From Gallionella sp. (GTDB lineage Bacteria > Pseudomonadota > Gammaproteobacteria > Burkholderiales > Gallionellaceae), in assembly GCA_028689145.1 (NCBI GenBank), contig JAQTWT010000001.1, positions 310,001-374,000 of the forward strand: 64,000 bases of DNA. The letters run 5' to 3'. Position 1 is the stretch's first letter, and every line of letters begins with the position of its first letter. This document shows positions 10,941-27,056 of the stretch, one piece after another. Under the pieces are notes generated by a model. It ran no database searches and had not been told where the DNA came from. It worked only from the letters and a program-made list of their open reading frames with translations. Made by a program: the position numbers and the translations under genes.

Positions 10941-11187
10941 AGGAGTAACACCAATAACCACCCACCCCTGAATACTATCGGCCTTAAATTGCAAGCCGTA
11001 AATTTTCAGGCATTGCTCCCGGCAAAGCATGCTACTGACAGTGTGAATTATCAGGCGGCTAACTTTCTCCGCATCGTGAAAAGTGCCGGGTTCAATAAGC
11101 TGGAGTTGAGGTCGGCATAACAGAGGGAGTAGAATTACCGGATTGCGCAGTTTGGTCAATCAGCGGGGCGGAGGAAAAACAAGCAGG
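10941..11187 (+). other. Leader region of the hyf-like operon
   Basis: About 250 nt with no convincing gene, between the repeat after rdgB and the first hyf-like gene. The only visible signals are a possible promoter near 11106-11135 and a GGAGGA ribosome site near 11170. Confidence 0.4.
11106..11135 (+). promoter_or_regulatory. Possible sigma-70 promoter for the hyf-like operon
   Basis: TTGAGG (11106-11111) and TAGAAT (11130-11135) are separated by 18 nt, about 50 nt before the hyfB-like start. Both hexamers match four to five positions of consensus. Recognised by eye only. Confidence 0.3.
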
Positions 11188-13197
11188 ATGGACATTGTCG
11201 GTGTATTGCCGCTGGATGCGGCAGGCGCGCTTGTCGTGCTTTGGCTGGTACTGGGACTGCTGGGCTTGGCCATGCAGCACAGGCCGCACATCATCACCAA
11301 TGTCATTTTTCCTGTTGGCGCATTTGTTTCGCTGGCAGTCGCCGCCACCGGTTTGTGGGCGCTCGGCGAGGTTGCCAGCGTCGCCACTCTGCCTCTCGGG
11401 CTACCGGATTTACCTTTTCACCTTCGTCTCGATCCGCTCTCCGCTTTATTCCTGATTCTGCTCGGTGGTGCATCGTTCGGTGTGTCGCTGTTCAGTGCCG
11501 GCTATTTCAAATCCATGCAGGGCGATACGCTGGGTTTGCTGTGTCTGGAATATCATTTGTTCCTCGCCAGCATGGCGCTGGTGCTGCTCGCCGACGATGC
11601 CTACATGTTCATGGTGGCGTGGGAGACGATGGCGCTGTCTTCCTATTTTCTGGTTACCACCGACCATCATGTTCCCGACATCCGCAAGGCGGGTTATTTG
11701 TACCTGCTGGTTGCGCATGTCGGGGCGATTGCCATTTTGCTCGGATTCGGCGTAATGCAGGGCGGGCATGGCATCGGCGCATACACTTTCGCGGCGATGC
11801 GCGAGGCGCACCTGTCGGCATTCTGGTCGTCGGTGGTGTTCTTGCTGGCGTTGTTCGGTTTTGGCGCAAAAGCCGGTTTGCTGCCCCTGCACGTCTGGTT
11901 GCCGGAAGCGCATCCTGCCGCGCCCTCGCCGGTTTCCGCATTGATGAGCGGCATCATGCTGAAAACGGCGATCTACGGCATATTGCGCGTCACTTTCGAT
12001 TTGCTGGATACCCAGCTGTGGTGGTGGGGTGTGCTGGCGTTGGCGCTGGGGCTGATCACCGCAATTTTCGGCGTGATGTTCGCCGCCGTGCAAGTCGATA
12101 TGAAACGCCTGTTGGCGTATTCCTCGATCGAGAACATCGGACTGCTGCTGGTGGGTATCGGCCTGACCATTATCTTCCACGCTTACGACAAGGATGCGCT
12201 GGCGGCTTTGTCGCTTACCGCGACGCTGTACCACAGCTTGAACCACGCTGTCTTCAAGAGCCTGCTGTTTATCGGTACCGGTTCGATTTTGCACTCGACC
12301 GGCGAGCGCAACATGGGACGCATGGGCGGCCTGATCCATGACATGCCTTGGGTTGCGGCGCTGATGCTGGTCGGCGTGCTGTCCATCTCCGGCCTGCCGC
12401 CGTTTAACGGGTTCGTCTCGGAATGGCTGTTGTTGCAGGCATTTTTGTTGTCGCCGGGCTTGCCCAACAGCTACATCAATATGCTGATACCGGTGGCGGC
12501 GGCGGTGATCGCACTGGCCGCCGCATTGGCAGCATATGTGATGGTGAAATTCTACGGGATTATTTTTCTCGGACAGCCGCGCGGGGAGGCACGCAATCCC
12601 CCGCATGATGCGGGCATTTGGAAACGTATCGGAATGGGTTGGCTGGCGCTCGGTTGCGTGACGCTCGGGCTGGCACCGGTTTTTGTCGTGCAGCAACTCG
12701 ATCATGTAACACAAATGCTGGTTGGACGGGGACTGGGTAATGCCGCCGCCGGTTGGTTGTTCCTCGCGCCGGTCGATATCGAGCGCGCCAGCTACAGCCC
12801 GGTGTATTTCCTGTTGGCGGTGGTGGGCGTGATGCTGCTGACCGCATTGGTGGTGCACCGTTATTATCACGGACGGCTGCGCCGCGGCCCGGCCTGGGAC
12901 TGCGGTTTTCCGGCGCAAACTTCGCGCATGCAGGATACCGCCGAAGGCTTCGGCCAGCCGATCCGGCGCATCTTCGAGCCGTTCTTCCGCATCGAAAGCG
13001 AGTTGCCCAGTCCGTTCGATACGCATCCGCGCTATCACGGCCGCAGCGATGACCGCATCTGGTTCGCGCTGTATCTGCCGATCAAACACCTCACCGAAAA
13101 ACTCTCGTCCCTTGCGTCATTGTTGCAGCATGGGCGCATCCATTTGTATTTGAGTTATACCTTTGTCACGCTAGTCGTGTTGCTGGCGTTCGTGTGA
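11188..13197 (+). CDS. hyfB: HyfB-like proton-translocating membrane subunit (NuoL/M type)
   Basis: About 669 residues, mostly hydrophobic, with the antiporter-module core KAGLLPLHVWLPEAHPAAPS and LLAYSSIENIGLLLVG. The C-terminal tail (GPAWDCGFPAQTSRMQDTAE) is typical of HyfB/HycC rather than of complex I NuoL. In the family this subunit forms a proton channel in the membrane arm. ATG 11188 was chosen because a purine-rich GGAGGA lies upstream and the residues encoded before it are not membrane-like. It is the first gene of the six-gene set and overlaps the next by one base (TGATG). Confidence 0.88.
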   Translation: MDIVGVLPLDAAGALVVLWLVLGLLGLAMQHRPHIITNVIFPVGAFVSLAVAATGLWALGEVASVATLPLGLPDLPFHLRLDPLSALFLILLGGASFGVSLFSAGYFKSMQGDTLGLLCLEYHLFLASMALVLLADDAYMFMVAWETMALSSYFLVTTDHHVPDIRKAGYLYLLVAHVGAIAILLGFGVMQGGHGIGAYTFAAMREAHLSAFWSSVVFLLALFGFGAKAGLLPLHVWLPEAHPAAPSPVSALMSGIMLKTAIYGILRVTFDLLDTQLWWWGVLALALGLITAIFGVMFAAVQVDMKRLLAYSSIENIGLLLVGIGLTIIFHAYDKDALAALSLTATLYHSLNHAVFKSLLFIGTGSILHSTGERNMGRMGGLIHDMPWVAALMLVGVLSISGLPPFNGFVSEWLLLQAFLLSPGLPNSYINMLIPVAAAVIALAAALAAYVMVKFYGIIFLGQPRGEARNPPHDAGIWKRIGMGWLALGCVTLGLAPVFVVQQLDHVTQMLVGRGLGNAAAGWLFLAPVDIERASYSPVYFLLAVVGVMLLTALVVHRYYHGRLRRGPAWDCGFPAQTSRMQDTAEGFGQPIRRIFEPFFRIESELPSPFDTHPRYHGRSDDRIWFALYLPIKHLTEKLSSLASLLQHGRIHLYLSYTFVTLVVLLAFV

Positions 13198-14156
13198 TGG
13201 AAAATACAAACCAGGCTCTCGGTCTGCTGTTCCAGTTTTACCAGTCGCTGCTGGTGGTGCTGCTTGCGCCGCTGCTGACCGGCTGGGTTAACCAGTGCCG
13301 CGCATGGTTGCAAAACCGCTCCGGCCCGGGCCTGTTGCAACCCTACCGCACGCTGCGCAAGCTGTTTCACAAGGATGCGGTCATGGCCTTTAACGCCTCG
13401 CCGCTGTTCCGCGCCACCCCCTATATCCTGTTCGGCTGCATGTGGCTGGCCGCAGCCATCATTCCGATCATTGCGGTGAATTTGCCCTTCTCGCCCGCCG
13501 CCGATGTGATCGCGCTGGTCGGGGTGTTCGCGCTGGCGCGGGTGTTCATCGCGCTCGCCGCGATGGATATCGGCACCGCATTCGGCACGCTCGGCGCGCG
13601 GCGCGAGATGCTGGTGTCGTTTCTCGCCGAACCGGCCTTGTTGATGGTGCTGTTCACCGCGTCGCTGATCAGCCACTCGACACAGCTGCCGCGCATCGTT
13701 GAAGCGCTTGCGCTGCAACAGTTCGTTTTGTATCCCAGTCTGGCCTTTGCCGGTCTGGCTTTTGTGATCGTGCTGCTGGCCGAGAACGCGCGTATTCCGG
13801 TGGACAATCCCGGCACGCATCTGGAATTGACCATGATCCACGAGGCGATGATTCTGGAATATTCGGCGCGCCATTTGGCGCTGGTGGAGTGGGCCAGCAG
13901 CCTCAAGTTGTTTGCCTATATTTCCATCGGCATCGCCCTGTTCGTTCCCTACGGCATCGCGGATGTCGGCAATTGGGGCGCGTTGCCGCTGGCTATTGTC
14001 GCGCTGCTGGTCAAACTGGCGTTGGCCGGAGCCGCGCTGGCACTACTGGAAACGCTGCTCGCCAAGATGCGTATCTTCCGCGCGCCGGAATTTATGGGTA
14101 CGGCATTTCTGCTGGCAGTTTTAGGGCTGTTGATCCATTTCTTATTGGGCGCGTGA
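13197..14156 (+). CDS. hyfC: HyfC-like membrane anchor subunit (NuoH/HycD type)
   Basis: 319 residues with about eight membrane segments. The family motifs LLQPYRTLRKLFHKD near residue 45, ARVFIALAAMDIGTAFGTLG and the acidic loop NPGTHLELTMIHEAMILEYS are intact. In group 4 hydrogenases and complex I this subunit joins the electron-transfer arm to the membrane ion-pumping modules. The start ATG 13197 overlaps the hyfB stop, and the next gene begins 1 nt after this stop, so translation is likely coupled. Confidence 0.88.
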   Translation: MENTNQALGLLFQFYQSLLVVLLAPLLTGWVNQCRAWLQNRSGPGLLQPYRTLRKLFHKDAVMAFNASPLFRATPYILFGCMWLAAAIIPIIAVNLPFSPAADVIALVGVFALARVFIALAAMDIGTAFGTLGARREMLVSFLAEPALLMVLFTASLISHSTQLPRIVEALALQQFVLYPSLAFAGLAFVIVLLAENARIPVDNPGTHLELTMIHEAMILEYSARHLALVEWASSLKLFAYISIGIALFVPYGIADVGNWGALPLAIVALLVKLALAGAALALLETLLAKMRIFRAPEFMGTAFLLAVLGLLIHFLLGA

Positions 14157-14157
14157 T

Positions 14158-14826
14158 ATGCAAATGACTTACAGCCTCCAATTCATCTACCTGCTGGCAT
14201 CCATGCTGCTGTTGATCGCGTTTGCCATGCTGTCGCAACGGCGCATCCTGTCGCTGATTAATCTGTTTGCCTTGCAGGGGTTGGTATTGTCGCTCAGTAC
14301 CTTTGTGGTGGCGTTCTCGACGAATCAGCAACATTTGTATTATTCCGCCGGATTGACGCTGCTGCTCAAGGTGCTGGTTTTGCCGTGGCTGCTGCATCGG
14401 CTGATCCGCAAGCTGAACGTAAGGTGGGACGTGGAAACGCTGATCAATATTCCCACCACCATGCTGGTCGGCATCGCACTGGTGATTTTCGCTTTCAATC
14501 TGGCCGCGCCGATCTCGCAACTTTCCGAGAGCATCACGCGCGGCCTGATCGGCATCGCGCTGGCCAGCGTGTTGTTGTCGCTGCTGATGATGTTGACACG
14601 GCGCAAGGCCGTCCCGCAGGTGGTAGGTTTTCTGGCGATGGAAAACGGGCTGTTCTTTGCCGCGACCAGCGCCACGCACGGCATGCCGCTGGTGGTGGAG
14701 TTGGGGATTGCGCTGGACGTACTAGTGGCAACATTTATTTTTGGTATTTTCTTTTTCCAGATCCGCGAGACCTTCGACAGCCTCGACATCTCCAACATGG
14801 AGAAGCTCAAAGATGACAACACCTGA
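14158..14826 (+). CDS. hyfE: HyfE-like membrane subunit (NuoK-related)
   Basis: 222 residues with about seven hydrophobic segments. The block VVGFLAMENGLFFAATSATHGMP resembles the Glu-containing NuoK/MrpC helix, and the tail ends IRETFDSLDIS as in HyfE proteins. An in-frame ATG two codons later is an alternative start. It lies between hyfC and hyfF in the order usual for hydrogenase-4 operons. Confidence 0.85.
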   Translation: MQMTYSLQFIYLLASMLLLIAFAMLSQRRILSLINLFALQGLVLSLSTFVVAFSTNQQHLYYSAGLTLLLKVLVLPWLLHRLIRKLNVRWDVETLINIPTTMLVGIALVIFAFNLAAPISQLSESITRGLIGIALASVLLSLLMMLTRRKAVPQVVGFLAMENGLFFAATSATHGMPLVVELGIALDVLVATFIFGIFFFQIRETFDSLDISNMEKLKDDNT

Positions 14827-14848
14827 AAATTGTCGTGCGCGCAAGACT

Positions 14849-14894
14849 GTAGGTCGGGCTTTAGCCCGACATGTCGGGTTGAAACCCGACCTAC
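14849..14894. repeat. GTAGGTCGGGC palindromic repeat
   Basis: A 46-bp double palindrome (GTAGGTCGGGCTTTAGCCCG, then CGGGTTGAAACCCGACCTAC) sits in the only sizeable gap of the hyfE-hyfF junction. It belongs to the GTAGG/CCTAC class. Confidence 0.75.
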
Positions 14895-14916
14895 GCCACG
14901 TGGAAAATAGGTGCCT

Positions 14917-16377
14917 ATGATTGATTTACAACTACTGGCGCTGTTGCTCACCCCGCTGTTGGGCGGGTTGCTGCTGGCCGCCTTCGGCTCGCGCAGCTGG
15001 GCGGCGGAACTCAATTCGCTGATGAGTTTCTGTACCTTTGTCGCGGCGGTGGTGCTGACCATGCGCGTGATCGACTCGGGGCCGCAGGTCGCGTTCAACG
15101 AGCAGTTTTTCATCGACCAGTTCAACGTATTTCTGGTCGCGCTGACCGCATTCGTGGCATTTACCACCTCGCTGTTTTCGCGGCCTTACATGCGCATCGA
15201 GCAGCATCACGGCAAGCTCACCACACCGATGCTGCACCTGTACTACAGCATGTACCAGATGTTTACGCTGGCCATGCTGGTGGCGTTGACATCCAACAAT
15301 ATGGGCATAATCTGGGTGGCGATGGAGGCTGCCACATTGACCACCGTGTTGCTGGTCAGCCTGTATCGCACCCCGGCCAGCATCGAGGCGGCGTGGAAGT
15401 ATTTCATCCTGTGCGGCGTGGGTATCGCGCTCGCCCTGTTCGGCACCATCCTGCTGTATTTCGCCGCCGAGCGTGTGCTAGGCGAAGGCGGTACCGCGTT
15501 GCTGTGGACGCATTTAAACGAGGTCAAAGGCAGTCTCGAACCCACGGTACTCAAGCTGGCGTTTGTATTTTTGCTGGTGGGCTACGGCACCAAGATTGGG
15601 CTGGTACCGCTGCACAGCTGGTTGCCGGATGCGCACGCGGAAGGCCCCACGCCGGTATCTGCGGTGCTTTCCGGTCTGCTGCTGAACGTCGCATTGTGCG
15701 CGGTGATGCGCAGCAAAGTCTTGGTGGACGGTTCGCTGGGCACGCATTTCGCGGGCAACCTGATGATGGGTTTCGGCCTGTTGTCGGTGGTGGTCGCCGC
15801 ATTGTTCCTGTCGCGACAGAAGGACATCAAGCGCATGTTCGCCTATTCCTCCATCGAACACATGGGGCTGATTACCTTTGCATTCGGCATGGGCGGTCCG
15901 GTTGCCACCTTTGCGGCGATGCTGCATATGACCGTGCATAGCCTGACCAAGTCAGCGATCTTCTTTGCGGTCGGGCATGCGGTGCAAAAAGCCGGCACGC
16001 AGCAAATGGAAAATATCCGCGGCATGCTGCAGATCAGCCCGACCGTGGGATGGGGGCTGATGCTCGGCACGCTGGCGATTCTCGGTATGCCGCCGTTCGG
16101 CGTATTCGCCAGCGAGTTCCTGATCATCACCACCGCCATGCACGACTATCCGTGGACCACACCGATCCTATTGATATCGCTGGGCATCGCGTTTGCAGCG
16201 ATCTTCGGCAAGGTGCAGCCGATTGTGTTCGGCGAGACCACAGCGCGCCGCCTGCCGCATCAGCCGGCGCTGGTTCCGGTATTTGTACACTTGCTGCTGG
16301 TGCTGGCATTGGGGCTGTACATGCCGCCCTATCTGGCTGACTGGTACCGCCAGGCGGCGGCTTTGCTGGGGGGGTAA
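14917..16377 (+). CDS. hyfF: HyfF-like proton-translocating membrane subunit (NuoL/N type)
   Basis: 486 residues, a second antiporter-like module. Diagnostic segments are GLVPLHSWLPDAHAEGPTPV, MFAYSSIEHMGLITFAFG and MLHMTVHSLTKSAIFFAVGH, with the lysine/histidine residues used for proton relay in the family. ATG 14917 follows an AGGTG ribosome site; a GTG six bases earlier is an alternative. With hyfB, the complex would have two pump modules, fewer than the three of canonical Hyf, where HyfD is also present. Confidence 0.88.
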   Translation: MIDLQLLALLLTPLLGGLLLAAFGSRSWAAELNSLMSFCTFVAAVVLTMRVIDSGPQVAFNEQFFIDQFNVFLVALTAFVAFTTSLFSRPYMRIEQHHGKLTTPMLHLYYSMYQMFTLAMLVALTSNNMGIIWVAMEAATLTTVLLVSLYRTPASIEAAWKYFILCGVGIALALFGTILLYFAAERVLGEGGTALLWTHLNEVKGSLEPTVLKLAFVFLLVGYGTKIGLVPLHSWLPDAHAEGPTPVSAVLSGLLLNVALCAVMRSKVLVDGSLGTHFAGNLMMGFGLLSVVVAALFLSRQKDIKRMFAYSSIEHMGLITFAFGMGGPVATFAAMLHMTVHSLTKSAIFFAVGHAVQKAGTQQMENIRGMLQISPTVGWGLMLGTLAILGMPPFGVFASEFLIITTAMHDYPWTTPILLISLGIAFAAIFGKVQPIVFGETTARRLPHQPALVPVFVHLLLVLALGLYMPPYLADWYRQAAALLGG

Positions 16378-16398
16378 AAAATGACGTTGAACCATATT

Positions 16399-16499
16399 GT
16401 AGGATGGGTGGAGGCCGCAGGCCGTAACCCATCAAAGCCAAAACGATGGGTTGCGCGGAGTTTATCCAGAGCGGAGCCGAAGGGCTCCACCCATCCTAC
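16399..16499. repeat. GTAGGATGGGTGGAG palindromic repeat, copy 1
   Basis: A 101-bp inverted repeat with ends GTAGGATGGGTGGAG and CTCCACCCATCCTAC occupies the space between the hyfF stop and the hyfG-like start. A second member is at 32116-32199. It creates a 43-codon ORF (16381-16512) that ends 2 nt before the hyfG-like ATG; this is probably a by-product. Confidence 0.75.
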
Positions 16500-16514
16500 A
16501 CAAAGCATATAACG

Positions 16515-18125
16515 ATGCCGATCACTCATCCCAATCTGCGATTGAGCAAACTTCCCAGCGCGATTCCCGCGTGGTCGGGTGAAATTGCATCCGACGACTT
16601 GCAACCGGTTTGCCAGAATGTGCAGGACGGCGGCGGGCGGCTGGTGGCATTGTGGGGTAGCGATGCACGTTTCCCTCTCCCCAACCCTCTCCCGCAAGCG
16701 GGCGAGGGGGCAAACGAATCGCTGCGCGAATCTCAAGTAGACGGTTTTGTGCTGCATGTCGTACTGGTCAATGAGGCAGGATTGATTTGTCTGAGCGTAC
16801 CCTTGCCCGCCGACCAGCCCAACTATCCCGACATCAGCCGGATTTTTCCGGCGGCTAACCGCATGCAACGCGCGGCGTATGACCTGCTGGGTATTTATGC
16901 GCACGAAGGGCATGACCACCGCAAATGGTTGCGTCATGCTGCTTGGCATGGCGGCAGTTTTCCGCTGCGCAAGGATTTCGATGCTGTTCAAAGCCGAACT
17001 GATGAACCTGACTCCTACCCTTTCGTGCAGGTCGAAGGCCAAGGGGTACATGAGATCGCGGTCGGGCCGGTACACGCGGGCATTATCGAGCCGGGACATT
17101 TCCGTTTTTCCGTGGTCGGCGAAAAAACACTGCGCCTCGAAGAGCGTTTCGGCTACAAACACAAGGGTATCGAAAAACGCTTCGAGACTATGAGCGTGCA
17201 GCAGGGCGCCAAACTCGCCGGGCGGGTGAGCGGCGACAGCACGGTTGCTTATGCCTGGGCGTATGCGATGGCGGCTGAAAGCATCGCCGCCGTCACGCCG
17301 CCGGATCGGTCGCTGTGGCTACGCGCGCTGTTTCTGGAGCGCGAACGCATCGCCAACCATCTGGGCGATCTGGGTTATCTAGGCAACGATGTCGCGTTAT
17401 CGTTCGGCTTTGCGCAGTTCTGGATATTAAAAGAGCAAGTGCTGCGCAACAATGCCAAATTATTCGGACATCGCTATTTGATGGACAAAGTTATTCCGGG
17501 CGGCGTAACGGTGGATTTGGCGGAATCCGGCAAGCAAGTCCTGCTCGAAGAATGCGCGATGCTGGAACGCGAAGCGAGCGTGCTGCGCGGTATCTACGAC
17601 GAACATGCCGGGGTGCAGGATCGCTTCATCGGTGCGGGGCGCATTGAGCCGAAACTCGCCGCGCAGCTCGGATTATGCGGGCTGGCAGGGCGCGCCAGCG
17701 CGCAGTCCTGGGATGCGCGCGTGCAGTTTCCCTGCGCGCCCTATGACAAGCTGGACGTACAGATGGCGACCTACCGCAACGGCGATGTTGCCGCGCGTGT
17801 CATCGTACGCTTCGACGAGCTGTTCGAGTCGTTGCGTTTGCAGCGCGAAATTATGGTTCATCTGGTGCACGGCGACGATCTGGCTATACCGCTGGAAAAA
17901 CTCCCCGCGCACGGTTTCGGTGTGGGCATGGTGGAAGGTTGGCGCGGCGAGGTGCTGGTGGCGACACACACCGATGCACAGGGCAATCTCACGCGCGTGC
18001 ATCCGCATGACCCATCCTGGCAAAACTGGCCGGTGCTGGAGCATGCCGTCATAGGCAACATCGTGCCGGATTTTCCGCTGATCAATAAATCGTTCAACCT
18101 CAGTTACTCGGGGCAGGATCTCTGA
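16515..18125 (+). CDS. hyfG: HyfG/HycE-like large subunit lacking all NiFe-ligand cysteines
   Basis: 536 residues. An N-terminal NuoC-like domain (to about 180) contains YDLLGIYAHEGHDHRKWLRH, and a NuoD/hydrogenase-large-subunit domain begins near EIAVGPVHAGIIEPGHF. The first Ni-binding motif RVCGICG is RVSGDST (residues 237-243). The C-terminal DPCxSC motif is replaced by SFNLSYSGQDL, after which the protein ends, so the maturation peptide is also absent. All four metal-ligand cysteines are therefore gone. This fits the energy-converting hydrogenase-related (Ehr) class rather than an active hydrogenase. Its electron acceptor is unknown. A GC-rich palindrome is read in frame near residues 54-66. 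The start ATG 16515 follows a repeat, and the stop overlaps the next gene (TGATG). Confidence 0.85.
   Translation: MPITHPNLRLSKLPSAIPAWSGEIASDDLQPVCQNVQDGGGRLVALWGSDARFPLPNPLPQAGEGANESLRESQVDGFVLHVVLVNEAGLICLSVPLPADQPNYPDISRIFPAANRMQRAAYDLLGIYAHEGHDHRKWLRHAAWHGGSFPLRKDFDAVQSRTDEPDSYPFVQVEGQGVHEIAVGPVHAGIIEPGHFRFSVVGEKTLRLEERFGYKHKGIEKRFETMSVQQGAKLAGRVSGDSTVAYAWAYAMAAESIAAVTPPDRSLWLRALFLERERIANHLGDLGYLGNDVALSFGFAQFWILKEQVLRNNAKLFGHRYLMDKVIPGGVTVDLAESGKQVLLEECAMLEREASVLRGIYDEHAGVQDRFIGAGRIEPKLAAQLGLCGLAGRASAQSWDARVQFPCAPYDKLDVQMATYRNGDVAARVIVRFDELFESLRLQREIMVHLVHGDDLAIPLEKLPAHGFGVGMVEGWRGEVLVATHTDAQGNLTRVHPHDPSWQNWPVLEHAVIGNIVPDFPLINKSFNLSYSGQDL
16673..16710. repeat. REP-like palindrome inside the hyfG-like coding region
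   Basis: A CCCTCTCCCC tract followed by a stem CCCTCTCCCGC / GCGGGCGAGGG. In the reading frame of the large subunit it is translated as PLPNPLPQAGEGA, the usual protein echo of this intergenic repeat type. It leaves the frame open. Confidence 0.7.
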
Positions 18126-18673
18126 TGTATCAACTTCTCAAACAAATCATCAAGACCGGCATCAAGACCGAAGCCGCGCCGCTGCCGGACGAGTCCATGC
18201 GCGTCGGAACGCAGCGGCTGCAACAGGAAATTCTGCGTGTGTTCGGCGGTGCGCTGAATATCCGCCATGTCGATGCCGGGTCGTGCAACGGCTGCGAATT
18301 GGAAATACACGCGGTCAACAACGCCTATTACAACATCGAAGGGCTGGGCATCAAATTCGTCGCCAGCCCGCGCCATGCCGATCTGCTGCTGGTCACCGGC
18401 CCGGTGTCGCGCCATCTGGCAACCGCTCTCAAGCGCACTTACGATGCGACACCCGAACCCAAGCTGGTGGTGGCGATAGGCGATTGTGGCTGTACAGGCG
18501 GAATCTTTTCTCCCGATGGCGGTGGCGAGAGCTATGCTAGCTGCGGAAAAGTTGCCAATGTGATTCCGGTCGATGTGGCGGTAAGCGGTTGTCCGCCGAC
18601 CCCCACCGCGATACTGCAAGGCATACTGACCGCGATCAGTGCGCCCCAAAAAACGGGTGATAAAACCGGTTAA
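18125..18673 (+). CDS. hyfI: HyfI-like small subunit with complete 4Fe-4S site (NuoB-like)
   Basis: 182 residues. C54 and C57 (GSCNGCELE), C121/C123 (GDCGCTGG) and C156 (SGCPPTP) supply the four ligands for the proximal [4Fe-4S] cluster, equivalent to N2 of complex I. The small subunit therefore seems redox-competent although its large partner has no NiFe site. The conserved block HADLLLVTGPVSRHLATALKR is present. It overlaps the hyfG-like stop by one base and is the last gene of the set; the next 257 nt hold no gene. Confidence 0.9.
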   Translation: MYQLLKQIIKTGIKTEAAPLPDESMRVGTQRLQQEILRVFGGALNIRHVDAGSCNGCELEIHAVNNAYYNIEGLGIKFVASPRHADLLLVTGPVSRHLATALKRTYDATPEPKLVVAIGDCGCTGGIFSPDGGGESYASCGKVANVIPVDVAVSGCPPTPTAILQGILTAISAPQKTGDKTG

Positions 18674-18930: not shown

Positions 18931-19872
18931 ATGAGAAATCTCTGGATGATGTTTTTTGCGTTTGCTCTGGTTGCGTGCGGCCAGCACGAATCAGGCAAAA
19001 CGACCGAACCACAGTTCGCCAACAAGACACCCGAGGTTGGCAAAGAATATGTTTTCGCCCCTCACCCGCTGCATAATCCGGCACGCCTGTTTGAAATCTA
19101 TGGCCCGGTGATCGACTACCTGAACCGGAATATTTCAGGCGCAAAATTCCGACTGGAAGCCTCGCGCAATTACGAGGAATTTGAAAAAAAGCTGTACGCG
19201 CGCCAAGTTGATTTCGCCTTGCCCAATCCTTATCAGACACTGAATTCGCTGAACCACGGTTATCACGTCATCGCCAAGATGGGGGATGACTACAAGTTTA
19301 CCGGTGTCATTCTGGTCAGACGCGACAGCGGCATCAACAAGGTTACCGACCTCAAAGGCAAAAAAGTATCGTATCCAGCCCGCACTGCGCTGGCAGCCAC
19401 CATGATGCCGCAATATTATTTTCAGACCCACGGCCTGGACGTAAATCGCGACATCGAGAACCTGTACGTCGGTTCGCAGGAATCGTCAATTATGAACGTG
19501 TATTTGGGTAACGTGGCGGCGGGTACGACCTGGCCGCTGCCGTGGGAGGCTTTCCAGAACGAGCATCCCGAGATGGCACGCGAGCTGGAGCTCAAATGGG
19601 AAACCGAGCCGATGATCAACAATGGCGTGGTGGTCAGAGACGATGTGCCCGAACAGCTTGCCAGACAGGTGGCACAGCTTCTTGATACCCTGCATGCCAA
19701 TCAAGAAGGGAAAGCCATGCTGGCGCGTATGCCATTATCCCGTTTCGAACTGGCCGATGATAAACGTTACCGGGTGATCGAGGATTTCTTGCGCCAATTC
19801 AGCCGAACCGTGTATCCCATAGATGTTCCTGGCGGGCATGCTGTCAAGAAACCGGATGCGCAAAAAAAATGA
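18931..19872 (+). CDS. PhnD-like periplasmic binding lipoprotein
   Basis: 313 residues. A short signal peptide ends in a lipobox LVAC with lipidation Cys16, so the protein is probably membrane-anchored in the periplasm. The body resembles phosphate/phosphite/phosphonate-type solute-binding proteins (PhnD/SsuA class), with [20 protein letters not shown] and [15 protein letters not shown]. An ideal AAGGAGG precedes ATG 18931. No ABC permease or ATPase is near. Its last codons overlap the start of a sensor kinase (ATGA, 19869-19872), so it probably presents a ligand to that kinase rather than to a transporter. The ligand is unknown. Confidence 0.8.
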
Positions 19873-22800
19873 AATCACTTCCGTCCTTAATCGCAACACG
19901 AGGTTCATTCAAACGCCAGATTATTCTGGCCTTCGCGGTCGGCTTCTTTTTTCTGGCAGCTGCTTTTAGCGCTTATCAGGTAAAAACTGAAAAAGCCTAC
20001 CTGTATCTGGGCAGCACCGATGAAACGATCAGCCTGGCGAAATCACTTGCGGTCAGCTCCCGTTCCTGGCTGCTGGCGTACGATTTAAATGGCATGCAGG
20101 AAGTTGTCCACTCTTTCCAGAGTCATCCCGAGTTGCGTTATGCGATGGTTATTTCCCCCTCGGGCCGGGTGCTCGCGCACACTGATACAACTAAAATTGG
20201 GCAGTTTGTCTCCGATGAAGCCAGCCTGACCCTCATCAAATCGCCGCCCGAGAACAGAGTCATGATCGATGACGAATCCCTGTCCGATATTGCGGTGCCG
20301 ATCATGATGGATCACCGGCATATCGGATGGGCGAGGGTCGCGCAGGGGCGTGAAGGGATTGCGGACAATTTGCACAAGATGATATTGAGCAGTGCTCTGT
20401 TCGTGCTAATGGCAGTGATTTTATCCCTGTTTGCCGCGCTGCTGATCGCCAAGCGGCTGGGATATCGCGTCGGATATCTGGTGCGGGTGGCAGAGCAAGT
20501 TCAGGCCGGAGATTATGCCACGCGCGCGGACATTTCCGGCGTGGACGAAATTGCCAGACTGGCCAGCAGTTTCAACCATATGCTGGATGTATTGGCACGG
20601 GACGAGGCGCAGCTGCGGGAGAGCGAGGCGTTGTTGCAAGCCACCATGAAAATCCTGCCGGTGGGTATCTGGATTTTTGACGCGGATGGAAAAATTATCT
20701 TCAGTAACGATGCCGCACAGCGTATCTGGGCTGGGGCACGCTACGTCGGCATAGAGCAGCTCGGCGAATACAAGGGCTGGCGGCTTGACAGCAAAAAGCA
20801 GATAGAACCCCATGAATGGGCAGGTGCGCGGGCTCTCGAGAAGGGTGAGACATCCATCGAGGAGGAGATCGAGATCGAATGTTTCGACGGCACGCACAAA
20901 ATTATCCTCGACTCCGCTGTACCCCTCCGTAGCAGCGACGGGAGCATCCGTGGTGCCATCACTATCAACCATGACATCACCGAGCGCAAACGGGCGGAAT
21001 TGGAACGTGAACAGTATTTCAAGTTTTTCAGCACGTCTACCGACCTGATGTGCATTGCCGATCCCAATGGTTGTTTCAAGAAGATCAACCCCGTTTGTAC
21101 ACAAATGCTCGGGTATGCCGAGGAGGAACTGCTGGCAAAACCGTTCATCGAATTCGTCCACCCCGATGACCGTCAATCTACTCTCGATGAAATGGCAAGG
21201 CAGATGCAGCTTGGTTTTTCGCTCAAATTCGAAAATCGCTATCTGTGCAAGGACGGCTCATTCCGCTGGCTGTCGTGGAACGCCAATTATATTAAAGACG
21301 AGGGCATCACCTATGCCACGGCGCGCGACATTACCGAGAGCAAGGCGGCGAAAGATACGCTAAGGGAAAAAGAGGAGCGTCTCGCATTGGCCACCGTCAA
21401 TAATGGCGTGGGAATCTGGGATTGGAATCTGCAAACCCAGCAATTGATCTGGGATGATTCGATGTATGCGCTCTACCATATTCGCCGCGAAGACTTCTCG
21501 GGTACAGAGGAGGCCTGGCGCGCGTCCCTGCATCCGGATGACCTGAATCGCGGGGACAAGGAAGTGGCGGATGCGATCGCGGGCAAGAAGCCTTTTGAAA
21601 CGGAATTTCGCGTGGTCTGGCCAAACGGCGAAATTCGCCACATCAAGGCCGTGGCGAAGGTATTTCGCGACGCTCAGGGAACGCCGTTGCGGATGCTCGG
21701 TATCAATATGGATGTTTCCGAGCGCAGAAAGGCTGAAATGGAGCTGCGTCGTAGCGAGCGGGGCCTGTCCGAAGCGCAGCGCATTGCCCACCTTGGCAAC
21801 TGGGAACTTGATCTGACCAGTAATATGCTAATTTGGTCGGACGAGATTTACCGCATCTTTGAAATTGACCCGGAAAAGTTCGGCGCGTCCTACGATGCTT
21901 TCCTGAACGCGATCCATCCCGATGACCGCGAGCTGGTGAACAACGCCTATAGCGAATCGGTCAAGAGCAAAATTCCTTACGATATAGTGCACCGGCTGCT
22001 GATGCAGGACGGGCGGGTGAAATACGTGAACGAGAAATGCGAGACGCATTACGGCGAGGACGGCAAGCCATTGCGTTCGGTTGGCACAGTACATGACATC
22101 ACAGAGCGCAAAAAAATCGAGATGGAGCTGCGCGAGCTTAACAACGACTTTGTCACCCTGCTCGATAATACCGGCGACTTCATCTATTTCAAGGACAAGG
22201 ATAGCCGCATCCGTTTTTGCAGCCAGACGCTTGCCAATATCACCGGTCACTCCAGCTGGCACGATATGATCGGCAAACATGATCTGGAAATTTTTCCGGC
22301 AGATACGGCAAAAATTTACTACGAGGAGGAACTGCCGGTGTTCCGGGAAGGCAAGCCGCTGCTAAATAAGACCGTACCCTATTATGACGAACAGGGCAGA
22401 CCTGGCTGGGTGAACACCAACAAGTGGCCGGTATTCGGTGATGACAAGAAGACCGTGGTGGGCATCTTCGGCATCAGCCGCGATATTACCGAACTCAAGG
22501 AGGCAGAGGACGAGATCAATGAACTCAACCGCGACTTGGAGCGGCGGGTGGTCGAGCGAACCGCAGAACTCGAAGCGGCCAACAATGAACTGGAGGCATT
22601 TTCCTATTCGGTTTCACACGACTTGCGCACACCGTTGCGCGCCATCGACGGATTCTCGCGCATCCTGCTGGACGACTACACCGATAAGCTGGATGACGAA
22701 GGTAAGCGGTTGCTCAACGTGGTGCGCAATAATACCGAGCGCATGTCACAGCTGATCGATGACATCCTGCGTTTCTCGCGTATCGGTCGCGCTGAAATAT

Positions 22801-23258
22801 CCTTTGCTGAAGTAGATATGTTCGGATTGGTACGCGATGTTCTCGATGAGCTCGGCACGCTGATCGCCGGTCGCAAGATACAAATTAATTTTGGCGAGCT
22901 TCCCAAAGCCATGGGTGACCGCGCCATGCTTCATCAGGTTATTGAAAACTTGCTGAACAATGCCATCAAGTTCACCGGAAAAAAAGACGAAGCACGCATA
23001 GATATTGGGGGCAGGATTGATGGCGATAGGGCCGTCTATTCTGTGCGGGACAACGGTGCCGGTTTCGACATGCAGTATGCCGACAAGCTGTTCGGCGTGT
23101 TCCAGCGCCTGCATGCCGTGAATGAATTTGAAGGCACCGGTATCGGGCTCGCCATTGTCAAACGCATCGTCAGCCGTCACGGCGGCCGCGTGTGGGCAGA
23201 GGGCAAGGTCAACGAAGGAGCGACGATTTATTTCGCGTTACCAATAAAAGGGGAATGA
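19869..23258 (+). CDS. Multi-PAS sensor histidine kinase (HK1)
   Basis: 1129 residues. A membrane helix near 18-40, a periplasmic region to about 170, a second helix ([20 protein letters not shown]) and a HAMP domain to about 250 are followed by a chain of about five PAS domains marked by DITERK-type ends. The kinase core has phospho-acceptor H917 in [11 protein letters not shown]-box LLNNAIKF, and G-boxes DNGAGFDM and [11 protein letters not shown]. It has no receiver of its own, so phosphate must pass to a separate regulator. It is translationally coupled to the PhnD-like lipoprotein. It is the largest of five kinases in this cluster, all sharing the [14 protein letters not shown] linker. 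Confidence 0.9.
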
Positions 23259-23315
23259 GCGTCAGCAGCGAATAGCTGTCCGGGATATTTTTCCCCGAAA
23301 TAAAGGAGTAGCGCT

Positions 23316-24833
23316 ATGGCAATATCATCTTCACCCCGTAGTTCCTTATCACTACTGCGGCACAATGCCGCGCTGGCTTTGCTGTTGTGGTCGGTTGGCG
23401 CGGGTTTGTCGTGGTGGTGGAGCTATAACACCCACCAGCAACGTGTGCTGGAACTTGCCAAGGTCGAAGCAGCCACCAATATTAACAAGGACTGGTCGTT
23501 CCGGCTGTGGGCCACCTCGCATGGCGGAGTCTATGTCCCACCCGATGAGAAGACTCCTCCCAATCCTTATCTGGCGAATCTTCCAGACCGGGACATTATC
23601 ACTGAAAATGGCAAGCGTCTGACTCTCATGAATCCCGCATATGTGCTGCGCCAGATCATGCAGGGTTATTCAGATCTTTACGGGGTCAAGGGGCATATCA
23701 CCAGTTTGAATCTCACTAATCCGGTCAATGAACCCGATGCATGGGAGGTCGCCGCGCTTAAGTCATTCAAGCTAGGCGTGAAAGAAGCCGTGACCGTTGC
23801 CGATATCGACGGCAAACCCTATTTGCGGATGATACGTCCGATACTGATGGAGAAAGGATGCCTGAAATGCCATGCGAATATCGGCATCAAAGTGGGCGAG
23901 ATTCGCGGCGGCATCAGCACGGCAATTCCAATGGAGCCCCTTTATGCCGCTTTCAAACCCGACTTTCAGGGGGCCAGCCTGATTCACAGCATGTTTTGGC
24001 TGCTTGGTGTTGGCGCAATTGTTTTTATGGCATGGCGCGCCAAACGGGAGGCCGATGAGATTGACCGTTATCAGGGAGAAATCAATCATCTCAACCGTGA
24101 TTTGGAGCAGAGGGTGGCTGCGCGAACTGGCGATCTGGAGGCTGCCAACCAGGAGCTGGAGGCATTTTCCTTCTCAGTCTCGCATGATCTGCGCGCCCCG
24201 TTGCGCGCCATCGACGGTTTTTCCCGTATCCTGCTGGATGACTATACCGACAAGCTGGATGAAGAAGGTATGCGGCTGCTCAACGAGGTGCGGGACAATG
24301 CCGGCCGAATGGAGCAGCTCATTGACGACATGCTGAAATTTTCCCGTGCGGGGCGGGTGGAAATATTTTTTTCAGAGATTGATATGGAAAAATTGGCCCG
24401 CGAAGTTGTGCAAGAACTCCAGCCGGCTGTTGGCGACGGCAAGTTGCAAGTGGAAATAGATGCTATCCCCCCTGCAAAGGGAGACCGCGCCATGCTGCAT
24501 CAGGTATTTTTCAACCTGCTGTCCAACGCCATCAAGTTCAGCCGTACCAAAGAAACACCCCGAATTAAGTTGGGCTGCTCTATTGAAGGTGATGAAGCCG
24601 TTTACTTTGTGCGGGACAATGGGGTCGGTTTCGATATGCAGTATGCCGGCAAGCTGTTTGGTGTATTTCAGCGGCTGCACGGAGTGGATGAGTTCGAAGG
24701 CACCGGTATCGGTCTGGCCATCGTCAAACGCATCGTCACCCGCCATGGTGGCCGGGTGTGGGCCGATGGCCAGGTCAACGGGGGGGCAACTTTTTATTTT
24801 ACGTTGCCGGTTAAGGGGGCTGCTCAAAGATGA
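23316..24833 (+). CDS. Sensor histidine kinase with c-type haem-binding periplasmic domain (HK2)
   Basis: 505 residues. An N-terminal membrane helix is followed by a periplasmic DUF3365 (Tll0287-like) domain ending RMIRPILMEKGCLKCHANIG, with the haem attachment motif C182-L-K-C185-H186. After a second membrane helix (about 225-245) come the coiled linker and the kinase core, with H290 in SVSHDLRAPL, N-box LLSNAIKF and [11 protein letters not shown]. Covalent haem implies sensing of redox state or a small gas in the periplasm; the actual signal is unknown. An AAGGAG ribosome site precedes ATG 23316. There is no HAMP or receiver domain. Confidence 0.9.
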   Translation: MAISSSPRSSLSLLRHNAALALLLWSVGAGLSWWWSYNTHQQRVLELAKVEAATNINKDWSFRLWATSHGGVYVPPDEKTPPNPYLANLPDRDIITENGKRLTLMNPAYVLRQIMQGYSDLYGVKGHITSLNLTNPVNEPDAWEVAALKSFKLGVKEAVTVADIDGKPYLRMIRPILMEKGCLKCHANIGIKVGEIRGGISTAIPMEPLYAAFKPDFQGASLIHSMFWLLGVGAIVFMAWRAKREADEIDRYQGEINHLNRDLEQRVAARTGDLEAANQELEAFSFSVSHDLRAPLRAIDGFSRILLDDYTDKLDEEGMRLLNEVRDNAGRMEQLIDDMLKFSRAGRVEIFFSEIDMEKLAREVVQELQPAVGDGKLQVEIDAIPPAKGDRAMLHQVFFNLLSNAIKFSRTKETPRIKLGCSIEGDEAVYFVRDNGVGFDMQYAGKLFGVFQRLHGVDEFEGTGIGLAIVKRIVTRHGGRVWADGQVNGGATFYFTLPVKGAAQR

Positions 24834-24860
24834 TGAACAGCGGCCAATGGTAAAGAATAA

Positions 24861-27056
24861 ATGTTCAGCAACGCTACAACGCATTTCCGGAATTTGGCGA
24901 CATCCACCTCTTCTTTTGTGAGGTGGGTGGCGACAGGTGTTGCGCTGCTCAACCTGTTCGTTTTCGGCATGGTGGCCTTTTCGCTGTATCAAAGCTATGG
25001 AGAGGTTGTGGAAAACGTCGAAGTCACGGCGCAGAATCTGGCGCAGATTCTGGCACAAGACATCGGTGCCGACATCGGCAAGGTTGACTTGGCACTGCTC
25101 GCAACGGCTGACGAGATCGAACTGCAATACGCGAGCGGCGGTATCAAAGCGCATGCCCTGAATACCTTCATGGCGCGGATGCAAGGGCGCGTGCCAGAGG
25201 TGTTCAGTCTGCGCATGTCCGATACACAGGGGAATGTACGTTATGGTACAGGTGTAAATCCAGACGCTCGTGTGACAAATTTCGACCGCGAGTACTTTAT
25301 TCGCCAGCGCATCAATCCCAACGCCGGGTTGGTGATCGGCCAGCCGATATTTACGCGCATTGACCAACGCTGGGCCATTCCCCTTTCCCGTGCTATCCAT
25401 CTGCCGGATGGCTCATTCGGCGGCGTGGTCTATGCGAACTTGTCGATTGATCGTCTCACGAATATTTTTGCCAAACTGAATGTCGGCCCGCGCGGGTCCA
25501 TCTCGCTACGCGATGCGGAACTGAGGATTTTCGCCCGCTATCCGGTGCCCGGAGATATCCCCCGCGTTCTTGGCGAAAAACTAGCCGTACCCGAGTTGCA
25601 GGAAATGATCGGGGCGGGCCGCGTCTCCGGAGCCTACGTTACCAGTCACACGCTCGACGGCATCGAAAGGAAATTCGCAGTCCGAAAGATTAGCGGTTAT
25701 TCCCTCTATGCCGTGATTGGCAGAGCCACCGACGAATATATGGCGCGCTGGAAGGATCAAGCCGTCAAAACTTCAATATTGGCTGTGCTGTTCTTTTTGA
25801 CTACCCTGATATCGTCGTGGCTGCTCTACCGCAGCTGGAAGTATCAGCTGGCCGCCACGCTGGAGCTGGCGCGCGAAGAGGAAAAATTCCACACCGTGGC
25901 CGACTATACCTACGATTGGGAATACTGGGAGGGGGCGGGGCGCGAAATACTCTTTATGTCCCCTTCGTGCGAGCGTTTGACGGGATATTCGCAATCCGAG
26001 TTTATGTCCGATCCGGAATTGCTCTACCGCATTATCCATCCCGACGACCGTCATCTGATGGAGGCGCATCGGATTGATGCCGCGCATGAAGATGAAGCAG
26101 GTGCGGATTTTCGCATTGTGCGGCGCAATGGCGAGATTCGCTGGATCGCGCATGGTTGCTGTTCCGTATATGGGCGCGACGGCACGTTCAATGGGCGGCG
26201 GGCCTGCAACCGCGATATCACCGAACGCAAGCAAGCCGAGGCGGAGGTGCTCACGCTCAATGCCGAACTCGAACAACGGGTGGCACAGCGTACCGCCCAG
26301 CTGGAAGCCAACAATAAGGAGCTCGAAGAGTTTTCCTATTCGATGTCCCATGACATGCGCACCCCATTGCGTGCGCTGGATGGTTTTTCGAAGATACTGC
26401 TGGAGGAACACGCTGCCGGTCTAGATGACGAGGGCAAGCGCATGCTGAAGGTGCTGCGCGACAATGCCCGGCGCATGGGGCGGCTGGTCGACGATATTCT
26501 GCTGTTCTTGAGTATGGGGCGGCGGAAGATAGCGTATGTCGCTGTCGATGTCGCCAAACTGGTGCCGGAAATTTTTGCGGAGTTGCAGGCTGTGACTCCC
26601 GCGCGCCGCCTGCGTTTGGTACTTGGCACACTCCCGCCCGCTTGGGGCGACCGCGACATGATCCGCGAGGTATTGCAGCACCTGCTGTCGAATGCCGTCA
26701 AGTTTTCGCCGAACGATGGTGAAGTGCTAATCGAGGTTGGCTGCACAAACGAAGAAGAGGGAAATTGTTATTATGTAAAAGACCGCGGTGTAGGATTCGA
26801 TATGCGCTATGCGGACAAGCTGTTCAAAGTGTTTGAACGTGTGCATCCGACCGGCCAGTTCGAGGGCTCAGGCATCGGTCTGGCCATCGTCAAGCGCATC
26901 GTCACCCGCCACGGCGGGCGGGTGTGGGCGGAGGGCAAGGTCAACGGAGGCGCGACGATTTATTTTGCATTGCCAGCAAAGGACGAGAGCGCAATCAGTT
27001 CCGGCAATCAGCTTCACGAGCGCCCGCTTCAAGGTGATGCAAATGATAAAAATTGA
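24861..27056 (+). CDS. Cache-type sensor histidine kinase (HK3)
   Basis: 731 residues. Membrane helices near 24-45 and 300-320 bracket a periplasmic sensor domain of dCache/PDC character (TNFDREYFIRQRINPNAGLV, then GGVVYANLSIDRL). One PAS domain follows (about 340-460, ending DITERKQAE). The kinase core has H497 in SMSHDMRTPL, LLSNAVKF and [11 protein letters not shown]. Such Cache domains usually bind small organic ligands; none can be named. The kinase core is almost the same at DNA level as that of the next gene, indicating recent duplication or gene conversion. Confidence 0.88.
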   Translation: MFSNATTHFRNLATSTSSFVRWVATGVALLNLFVFGMVAFSLYQSYGEVVENVEVTAQNLAQILAQDIGADIGKVDLALLATADEIELQYASGGIKAHALNTFMARMQGRVPEVFSLRMSDTQGNVRYGTGVNPDARVTNFDREYFIRQRINPNAGLVIGQPIFTRIDQRWAIPLSRAIHLPDGSFGGVVYANLSIDRLTNIFAKLNVGPRGSISLRDAELRIFARYPVPGDIPRVLGEKLAVPELQEMIGAGRVSGAYVTSHTLDGIERKFAVRKISGYSLYAVIGRATDEYMARWKDQAVKTSILAVLFFLTTLISSWLLYRSWKYQLAATLELAREEEKFHTVADYTYDWEYWEGAGREILFMSPSCERLTGYSQSEFMSDPELLYRIIHPDDRHLMEAHRIDAAHEDEAGADFRIVRRNGEIRWIAHGCCSVYGRDGTFNGRRACNRDITERKQAEAEVLTLNAELEQRVAQRTAQLEANNKELEEFSYSMSHDMRTPLRALDGFSKILLEEHAAGLDDEGKRMLKVLRDNARRMGRLVDDILLFLSMGRRKIAYVAVDVAKLVPEIFAELQAVTPARRLRLVLGTLPPAWGDRDMIREVLQHLLSNAVKFSPNDGEVLIEVGCTNEEEGNCYYVKDRGVGFDMRYADKLFKVFERVHPTGQFEGSGIGLAIVKRIVTRHGGRVWAEGKVNGGATIYFALPAKDESAISSGNQLHERPLQGDANDKN

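Follow-up and report, generated by a model that had tools for sequence, protein, structure and literature searches.

The window analysed here, a stretch of 64,000 nucleotides from Gallionella sp. (GCA_028689145.1, contig JAQTWT010000001.1, positions 310,001–374,000 of the forward strand), harbors six genes running in the same direction at 11188–18673 on the + strand, in the order HyfB-, HyfC-, HyfE-, HyfF-, HyfG-, and HyfI-like. The fifth of them, ehrL, is the subject of this analysis.

11188–13197, + strand: ehrA, HyfB-like, ND5-type antiporter-like subunit (NCBIfam PRK06521, 922.8 bits, cut-off 667)
13194–14156, + strand: ehrB, HyfC/NuoH-like membrane anchor (Pfam NADHdh, 5.7e-35)
14158–14826, + strand: ehrC, HyfE-like membrane subunit (NCBIfam PRK11492, hydrogenase 4 membrane subunit)
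14911–16377, + strand: ehrD, HyfF-like antiporter-like subunit (NCBIfam NF005045, 878.4 bits, cut-off 543)
16515–18125, + strand: ehrL, HyfG/HycE-like large subunit without NiFe cysteines (Pfam, PDB alignment, tree)
16663–16738, + strand: dispersed repeat, in frame within ehrL at about codons 50–75 (blastn)
18125–18673, + strand: ehrS, HycG/MbhJ-like small subunit with one [4Fe-4S] site (Pfam Oxidored_q6, 3.8e-31)

The start of ehrA, ATG at 11188, was chosen within an ORF spanning 11143–13197, and the scans ran from 11185. The match of ehrC to PRK11492 (E = 9e-25, 87.8 bits) is below the cut-off of 136, and its Pfam scan gave no match. Pfam places a NuoC-like domain at residues 24–158 and a NuoD-like domain at 301–453 of EhrL, with no match to NiFeSe_Hases. 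Among the six genes, neither a counterpart of hyfA, hyfD, hyfH, hyfJ, or hyfR nor, by Pfam and NCBIfam, NuoE, NuoF, or NuoG is found. Upstream of the operon lie putative RNase PH and HAM1/RdgB family genes, as read from their translations; downstream, at 18931–27056, are a PhnD-like binding protein (Pfam) and then three large ORFs that by eye are putative PAS/histidine-kinase sensors. The host genome (2.74 Mb in 23 contigs) has a single copy of main-type EhrL and a RuBisCO-large-family gene, and its two PF00374 matches, one at C7:34951, point to a NiFe-hydrogenase family gene elsewhere in the genome.

The repeat within ehrL, about 75 bp long, translates to PLPNPLPQAGEG. Blastn detects copies of 63–79 bp at 92–95% identity at five further places in this genome, and a protein search gives twelve further matches in the genome, most of them in open frames. 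It is missing from the 28 other EhrL proteins that cover the site among the 30 scoring >600 bits. The EhrL proteins of L017, L023, L036, and L037 are 547–562 aa in length, compared with 512–522 aa in others (one incomplete), and L017 carries an unrelated insert in the same N-terminal position; the loop may thus be prone to insertions.

An earlier note on this DNA had described a hydrogenase-4-like large subunit in which all four NiFe cysteines are replaced and which ends without a maturation peptide, and the description is borne out in each of its parts. Translation of 16515–18125 (+) gives a protein of 536 aa with RVSGDST at residues 237–243 and LSYSG at 529–533, followed by Q534-D535-L536 and the stop. 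The best PDB match of EhrL by phmmer is E. coli HycE (7z0s_E, E = 1.4e-50, query residues 91–534); in the alignment, RVCGICG and SLDPCYSC of HycE lie on RVSGDST and SFNLSYSG, both ungapped, and the four ligand cysteines fall on Ser239, Ser242, Ser530, and Gly533. The tail past the aligned end is 0 residues in EhrL vs 32 in the Hyc/Hyf rows. Thus both hallmarks of group 4 [NiFe] hydrogenases, namely the four Cys ligands (CxxC, DPCxxC) and the C-terminal peptide removed by a protease, are lacking from EhrL, and EhrABCDLS, as judged from its sequence, is no hydrogenase.

The ligand cysteines are missing from both motifs in all of the 30 EhrL proteins scoring >600 bits, that of the window included. 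A wider alignment of 114 rows (the window, 80 named rows, and 33 others; 112 distinct, as L060/L082 and L048/L147 are identical) gives the same picture: the column of Ser239 is occupied by Ser in 100 rows, Ala in 7, Cys in 6, and Val in 1; that of Ser242 by Ser in 87, Thr in 23, Ala in 2, and Cys and Asn in 1 each; that of Ser530 by Ser in 98, Ala in 9, and Asn in 4, with 3 gaps; and that of Gly533 by Gly in 108 and Ala in 3, with 3 gaps. A single Cys occurs at the four positions in 7/114 rows and two in none. Small residues occupy these columns, with a degree of drift, and the former ligand positions have thus escaped the constraint expected of metal ligands. A sequencing error or frameshift is ruled out by the relatives likewise without cysteines, both among the 30 proteins and the 114 rows. 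A supply of ligands from nearby residues is also ruled out, since the Cys-richest column of EhrL, at residue 251, has Cys in only 61 of 114 rows.

The protein is no oddity: main-type Ehr forms a large family, which within the host family is found in 47 of 100 genomes, and both the operon and the loss of the ligands have been published before. With EhrL (P0001) as a query, 49 of these 100 genomes match at E ≤1e-20; the count of 47 includes the own genome and leaves out G020 and G063, which have distant types only. Across the class, the count at E ≤1e-40 is 35 of 274 genomes, the own genome again included. The nearest named relative is a Gallionella MAG (L078; 84% identity in one comparison and 87% in another). 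In one genus of the host family (g9), an EhrL match is found in 0 of 19 genomes and DabA in 14 of 19.

In a midpoint-rooted tree of 56 hand-chosen rows, 54 of them different, main-type Ehr forms one group (100/99), apart from Hyc/Hyf (100/100) and NuoD (100/100). A second Cys-less type, E31, makes a group of its own (99/97) and stands together with main-type Ehr (100/99); whether the Cys-less types form a single clade depends on this choice of root. The E31 type is about 30–33% identical to P0001 and has the gene order BCDLSA. At the E31-type loci (L067–L072 and L077), an N-terminal ferredoxin-like motif is present in four of the seven small subunits listed. MAG rows from Nitrospirae, “Deltaproteobacteria” (Myxococcota), and Acidobacteriaceae fall within main-type Ehr, which therefore seems spread over phyla, with the caveat of MAG binning. 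The exact order ABCDLS is found in 74 of 114 loci, and the other loci are ended by the contig, reordered by overlapping ORF calls, or supplied with further copies. At L093:1-3428 and L111:2-2588 the main-type operon adjoins a second complex-I-like cluster, and L105:3792-18521 holds two ABCDLS operons in tandem. The dN/dS values are 0.05–0.19 in 42 comparisons (six genes with seven relatives each; simple Nei-Gojobori, dS 0.6–1.7). On the strength of these sequence comparisons all six operon genes are under purifying selection, and decay into a pseudogene is ruled out.

The remaining subunits are those of a membrane complex. EhrS, which has 182 aa in the window and no N-terminal ferredoxin-like motif, matches MbhJ (6cfw_J, 2.2e-34) and HycG (7z0s_G, 4.7e-31) with CNGCE ungapped, and 105 of 107 EhrS sequences have the four-Cys pattern CxxC...C...C. 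The full CxxC, aligned ungapped with MbhJ and HycG, is not the shortened three-Cys proximal-cluster motif that marks MBS. Among sequences of usable length, Glu147, Lys229, and Glu413 are present in 89/89 EhrA, Glu139, Lys228, and Glu402 in 92/92 EhrD, and Glu146 and Glu222 in 65/65 EhrB, while the position of NuoH Glu218 is occupied by His209 in all 65 EhrB. The NuoH, NuoL, and NuoM positions picked for comparison are those we take to be the relevant ones, and the residues found there were checked. Taken together, the operon encodes a large subunit homologous to that of group 4 [NiFe] hydrogenases without the NiFe cysteines, a proximal-cluster small subunit, a NuoH-like anchor, a HyfE-like subunit, and antiporter-like subunits, and this is the composition of an Ehr complex, which is reportedly defined in a paper by Marreiros et al. 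The loss of the NiFe ligands and the Hyf-like six-gene operon support an Ehr-type complex, to which the earlier note pointed. Its pumping complex finds backing in the charged pump residues kept in EhrA and EhrD; pumping and any redox reaction are inferred.

No electron wire was found in the operon. Searches with HyfA, HycB, HyfH, HycF, and NuoI, covering ORFs of at least 80 aa in the 114 loci, added nothing to the main operon, and NuoI, a mark of complex I, had no match among them. The matches to these queries were DmsB-like proteins off the operon (L058, L078) and small subunits of the second clusters (L093, L111); ORFs with a 4Fe-4S motif within 3 kb are three in number. No electron-donor gene was found in the Ehr operon, nor any redox partner of the sort that the earlier note had in mind.

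The former active site has kept some of its residues and changed others. In HycE, passages of PMC9474812 describe Asp192/Glu193 as substrate-proton residues, Arg478, Asp529, and Ser283 as a canopy, and His284, Glu437, and Arg395 as a proton path; the chain numbering is taken as the gene's +12, deduced from 581 vs 569 residues. Asp192/Glu193 correspond to Ile191/Glu192 of EhrL, and Glu192 is found in 114/114 rows. The proton path corresponds to His282 (114/114), Glu435 (113 rows, one gap), and Arg393 (106 Arg, 7 Lys, one gap), and the canopy to Arg477 (112 rows, two gaps), Asn528, and Asn281. Hence the proton path and one loop acid are kept and the canopy Asp is now Asn. A passage of the same paper (PMC9474812) calls this Asp strictly conserved, and all six Nuo rows as well as the 11 Hyc/Hyf rows have Asp at position 528. 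The quinone ligands of complex I, described in PMC7684303 as His38 and Tyr87 of Nqo4, are likewise gone: Ile191 (114/114) and Gly240 (112/114, two Ala) stand at their positions. Ile191, Glu192, His216, Arg237, Asp241, His282, and Asp285 are invariant in 114/114 EhrL rows, and Asn524, Lys525, Ser526, and Tyr531 in 111/111, with Asn528 in 110/111. Six of these, Ile191, Asp241, Asp285, Asn524, Lys525, and Asn528, are not seen in any of the 11 Hyc/Hyf rows (nine distinct). An AlphaFold model of EhrL alone (mean pLDDT 79.2, pTM 0.85) has 7z0s_E as the top Foldseek match (E = 1.6e-31); the pLDDT is <50 at residues 166–217 and 512–536, where the active site lies, so the cavity is not visible in the model.

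Much of this kind of complex is already known. Ehr complexes without ligands and with no known function appear in passages of PMC10284858, PMC6349859, and PMC4378227, and charge translocation by them is suspected in print. Ehr is reported in several chemolithotrophs (PMC10284858, PMC4378227, and PMC5596200, in part), including Nitrospira (PMC10284858). A hyfBCEFGI operon is described in passages on Nitrospira, in one case adjoining CO dehydrogenase (PMC5596200), and on C. metallidurans and the laboratory strain Cupriavidus necator H16 (PMC2864759), and its six-gene content is the same as here (PMC5596200, PMC2864759, PMC10284858). For H16_A2196-2201, the literature search found no paper but PMC2864759, and Ehr goes unmentioned in the passage on hydrogenases of a Gallionellaceae pangenome paper (PMC10734462). 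The Ehr kind, the missing ligands, and the hyfBCEFGI operon are therefore known. The published Ehr complexes of Geobacter, Nitrospira, and Cupriavidus, likened here by description, also lack NiFe ligands where their descriptions state it and have a membrane arm of HyfE, HyfF, and HyfB type; that of Geobacter (GSU0739-45) differs in having EhrA-1 and EhrA-2, whereas the window operon has one EhrA (passages of PMC7894505 and PMC13194489). With E. coli Hyf/Hyc, the operon shares the fold and domain plan of EhrL, the cluster motif of EhrS, the proton path, and the pump residues of HyfB/HyfF, but EhrL has neither the four NiFe cysteines nor a C-terminal tail of 32 residues. With the Q-module of complex I (NuoCD/B/H), it shares the superfamily, the lack of a NiFe site, and a canopy Asn, Asn281, where NDUFS2 has Asn185 (according to a passage of PMC9474812), while it differs in having no quinone His/Tyr, CxxC instead of CC in EhrS, and no NuoI found. 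Like EhrL, the large subunit of Pyrococcus MBS is Cys-poor and without His38/Tyr87; MBS differs in its shortened three-Cys cluster motif, two Cys in the large subunit, and MbsN (passages of PMC7684303).

The neighborhood of Ehr operons offers a further lead. A SulP gene flanks 15 of the 114 Ehr loci, upstream on the same strand in 14 of the 15 and within 160 bp in ten, although that of L123 is a fragment of 160 aa at the end of a contig and that of L107 lies inside an over-long ORF. From a PF00916 background of 0.53–0.84 matches per Mb in 147 genomes, a rate inflated by split genes, the 1.05 Mb of flanks should hold 0.6–0.9 SulP genes, vs the 15 observed (Poisson P ≤7e-14, shared descent ignored). 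The statistic ignores shared descent, yet the SulPs are unlike in kind (20–53% identity among five compared) and the hosts differ, including Gallionellaceae, Thiobacillus, Sulfuritalea, Rhodocyclaceae, and Methylobacter, which runs counter to shared descent. A first clustering of neighbors gave 16 SulP loci and the recount with SulP queries gave 15/114, the sets differing in L075, L097, and L117. In a Pfam scan of 89 same-strand neighbor ORFs (the first two per side, ≤450 bp, 110–899 aa), Sulfate_transp PF00916 came top with 9/89 and its STAS domain with 8; Spermine_synth PF01564 was the second commonest neighbor kind (7/89), and the rest had at most three among the best 25 of 71 families. Spermidine-synthase-like genes lie beside Ehr at L082:12094-12927, L117:3048-3875, L049:11195-11971, and other places. 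The literature search found no paper on SulP beside Ehr among the matches listed.

Other neighbors occur in single cases: RuBisCO 249 bp downstream of Ehr in Thiomonas (L124), and a putative Chr transporter beside Ehr in L063. A weak CsoSCA-like protein (37 bits, cut-off 241) is encoded downstream of EhrS at L091:11334-12392, and a homolog at L055:7632-8765, with a gap of 5 downstream of EhrS, has no PDB chain match. As a fixed partner the CsoSCA-like gene is rejected, being present in 3/274 genomes, only one of these with Ehr. DabA as a complementary system is also rejected: in the host family it is present in 2/47 genomes with Ehr vs 17/53 without (P = 0.0003), and the difference vanishes (P = 0.64) when one genus is dropped. 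At two SulP loci (L058, L078) the SulP gene neighbors a DmsABC-like cluster that may be SoeABC, and ATP sulfurylase is near Ehr in L038 and L075; with sulfur-oxidation-like genes near these four loci, anions, not carbon, may be the common thread. Beside the window's operon, none of RuBisCO, CsoSCA-like, Chr-like, and SulP genes is present.

The reading that we favor, to which we give about an even chance, is a redox-coupled cation pump, probably acting on quinone, with an unlinked partner. A soluble partner would dock on EhrS, at the face that the absent NuoI/HycF subunit leaves exposed, and electrons would move between it and a substrate in the remodelled EhrL/EhrS/EhrB cavity. The substrate would most likely be quinone, protonated via Glu192 and the His282/Glu435/Arg477 path, with Asp241, Asn524, Lys525, and Asn528 replacing the metal and the usual quinone His/Tyr. 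Loop movements of EhrL and EhrB, in which His209 stands for the Glu of NuoH, would then drive cations through EhrD and EhrA. In an iron oxidizer, the cycle may run backwards, with the proton motive force spent on uphill electrons; indeed, passages on other lithotrophs propose reverse electron flow via complex-I-like pumps (PMC9040806, PMC6606698). Since both quinone ligands of complex I are gone, quinone binding would need a new mode, and the charged nature of the conserved EhrL pocket counts against quinone. Asn528 in place of the canopy Asp, the failure to find a donor gene in the operon, and the low confidence of the EhrL model at the active site, which hides the cavity, also speak against this reading. 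None of the cited passages reports an experiment that addresses the reaction of an Ehr complex.

Several other readings have to be weighed against the quinone-linked pump. Passages of PMC7684303 report that MBS, too without His38/Tyr87, reacts at its proximal cluster, and an MBS-like reductase, in which polysulfide or another small hydrophobic oxidant meets the EhrS cluster, would suit the sulfur-oxidation-like genes near L038, L058, L075, and L078. It is distinctly unlikely, however, because MBS has one cluster iron open and a Cys motif three residues shorter and receives its electrons via MbsN (same passages of PMC7684303), whereas EhrS keeps the full CxxC and no such subunit is found in the Ehr operon; moreover, MbsL keeps two cysteines and EhrL none or one. 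There is also a slim chance that Ehr passes electrons of formate to the membrane with a formate dehydrogenase as the partner: such an FDH-Ehr is proposed in a passage on Margulisbacteria (PMC6349859), and in Geobacter sulfurreducens all Ehr subunits are described as reaching higher levels on formate than under conditions with hydrogen (PMC7894505), but the HyfA, HycB, HyfH, HycF, and NuoI queries gave no main-operon match in ORFs of at least 80 aa. A non-functional relic of a hydrogenase, as a passage of PMC13194489 calls the Geobacter Ehr for its want of a NiFe site, is very improbable in view of the dN/dS values of 0.05–0.19, the new invariant residues, and the exact gene order in 74/114 loci though many loci are incomplete.

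The SulP genes suggest a different role, in which Ehr would supply or draw on a local proton or sodium gradient so that SulP can import bicarbonate (or sulfate), an idea modelled on the inorganic-carbon systems DAB and cyanobacterial NDH-1. Bicarbonate can be a substrate of SulP and Chr members (a passage of PMC10880623), and PMC13144422 describes DAB as a CO2 hydratase that is driven by PMF and contains a complex-I-like subunit. Such a role would agree with PF00916 as the top neighbor family and SulP at 15/114 loci, with the single cases of RuBisCO (L124), CsoSCA-like (L091, L055), and putative Chr (L063) genes, and with the RuBisCO-large-family gene of the host. We nevertheless consider it unlikely, as SulP is absent beside the window's operon and from 99/114 loci (some of them incomplete), and SulP also carries sulfate, so that a sulfur reading fits L058, L078, L038, and L075. 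The CsoSCA-like gene, with one Ehr genome among its three of 274 and no PDB match, and the exclusion between Ehr and DabA that vanishes once one genus is dropped (P = 0.64) count against it as well. Ehr also occurs in genera that are not known as autotrophs, which is a further point against bicarbonate. In its more specific form the proposal is quite unlikely: a former hydrogenase, now a pump driven or gated by redox chemistry, would work with SulP as the energy module for acquiring anions (bicarbonate, perhaps sulfate). If true, DAB and cyanobacterial NDH-1 would be joined by another device derived from complex I, one in which a new charged site (Glu192, Asp241, Lys525, Asn524, and Asn528) lies at the former NiFe center.

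To what was known of Ehr, the present analysis adds its position in the tree, the residue set of the cavity, the single [4Fe-4S] site with no NuoI/HycF wire found, and the association with SulP. The selection and residue data argue that Ehr complexes work, against the claim of non-function made for Geobacter in a passage of PMC13194489. Furthermore, the conserved residues name targets for mutation, and the association with SulP gives a phenotype to seek.
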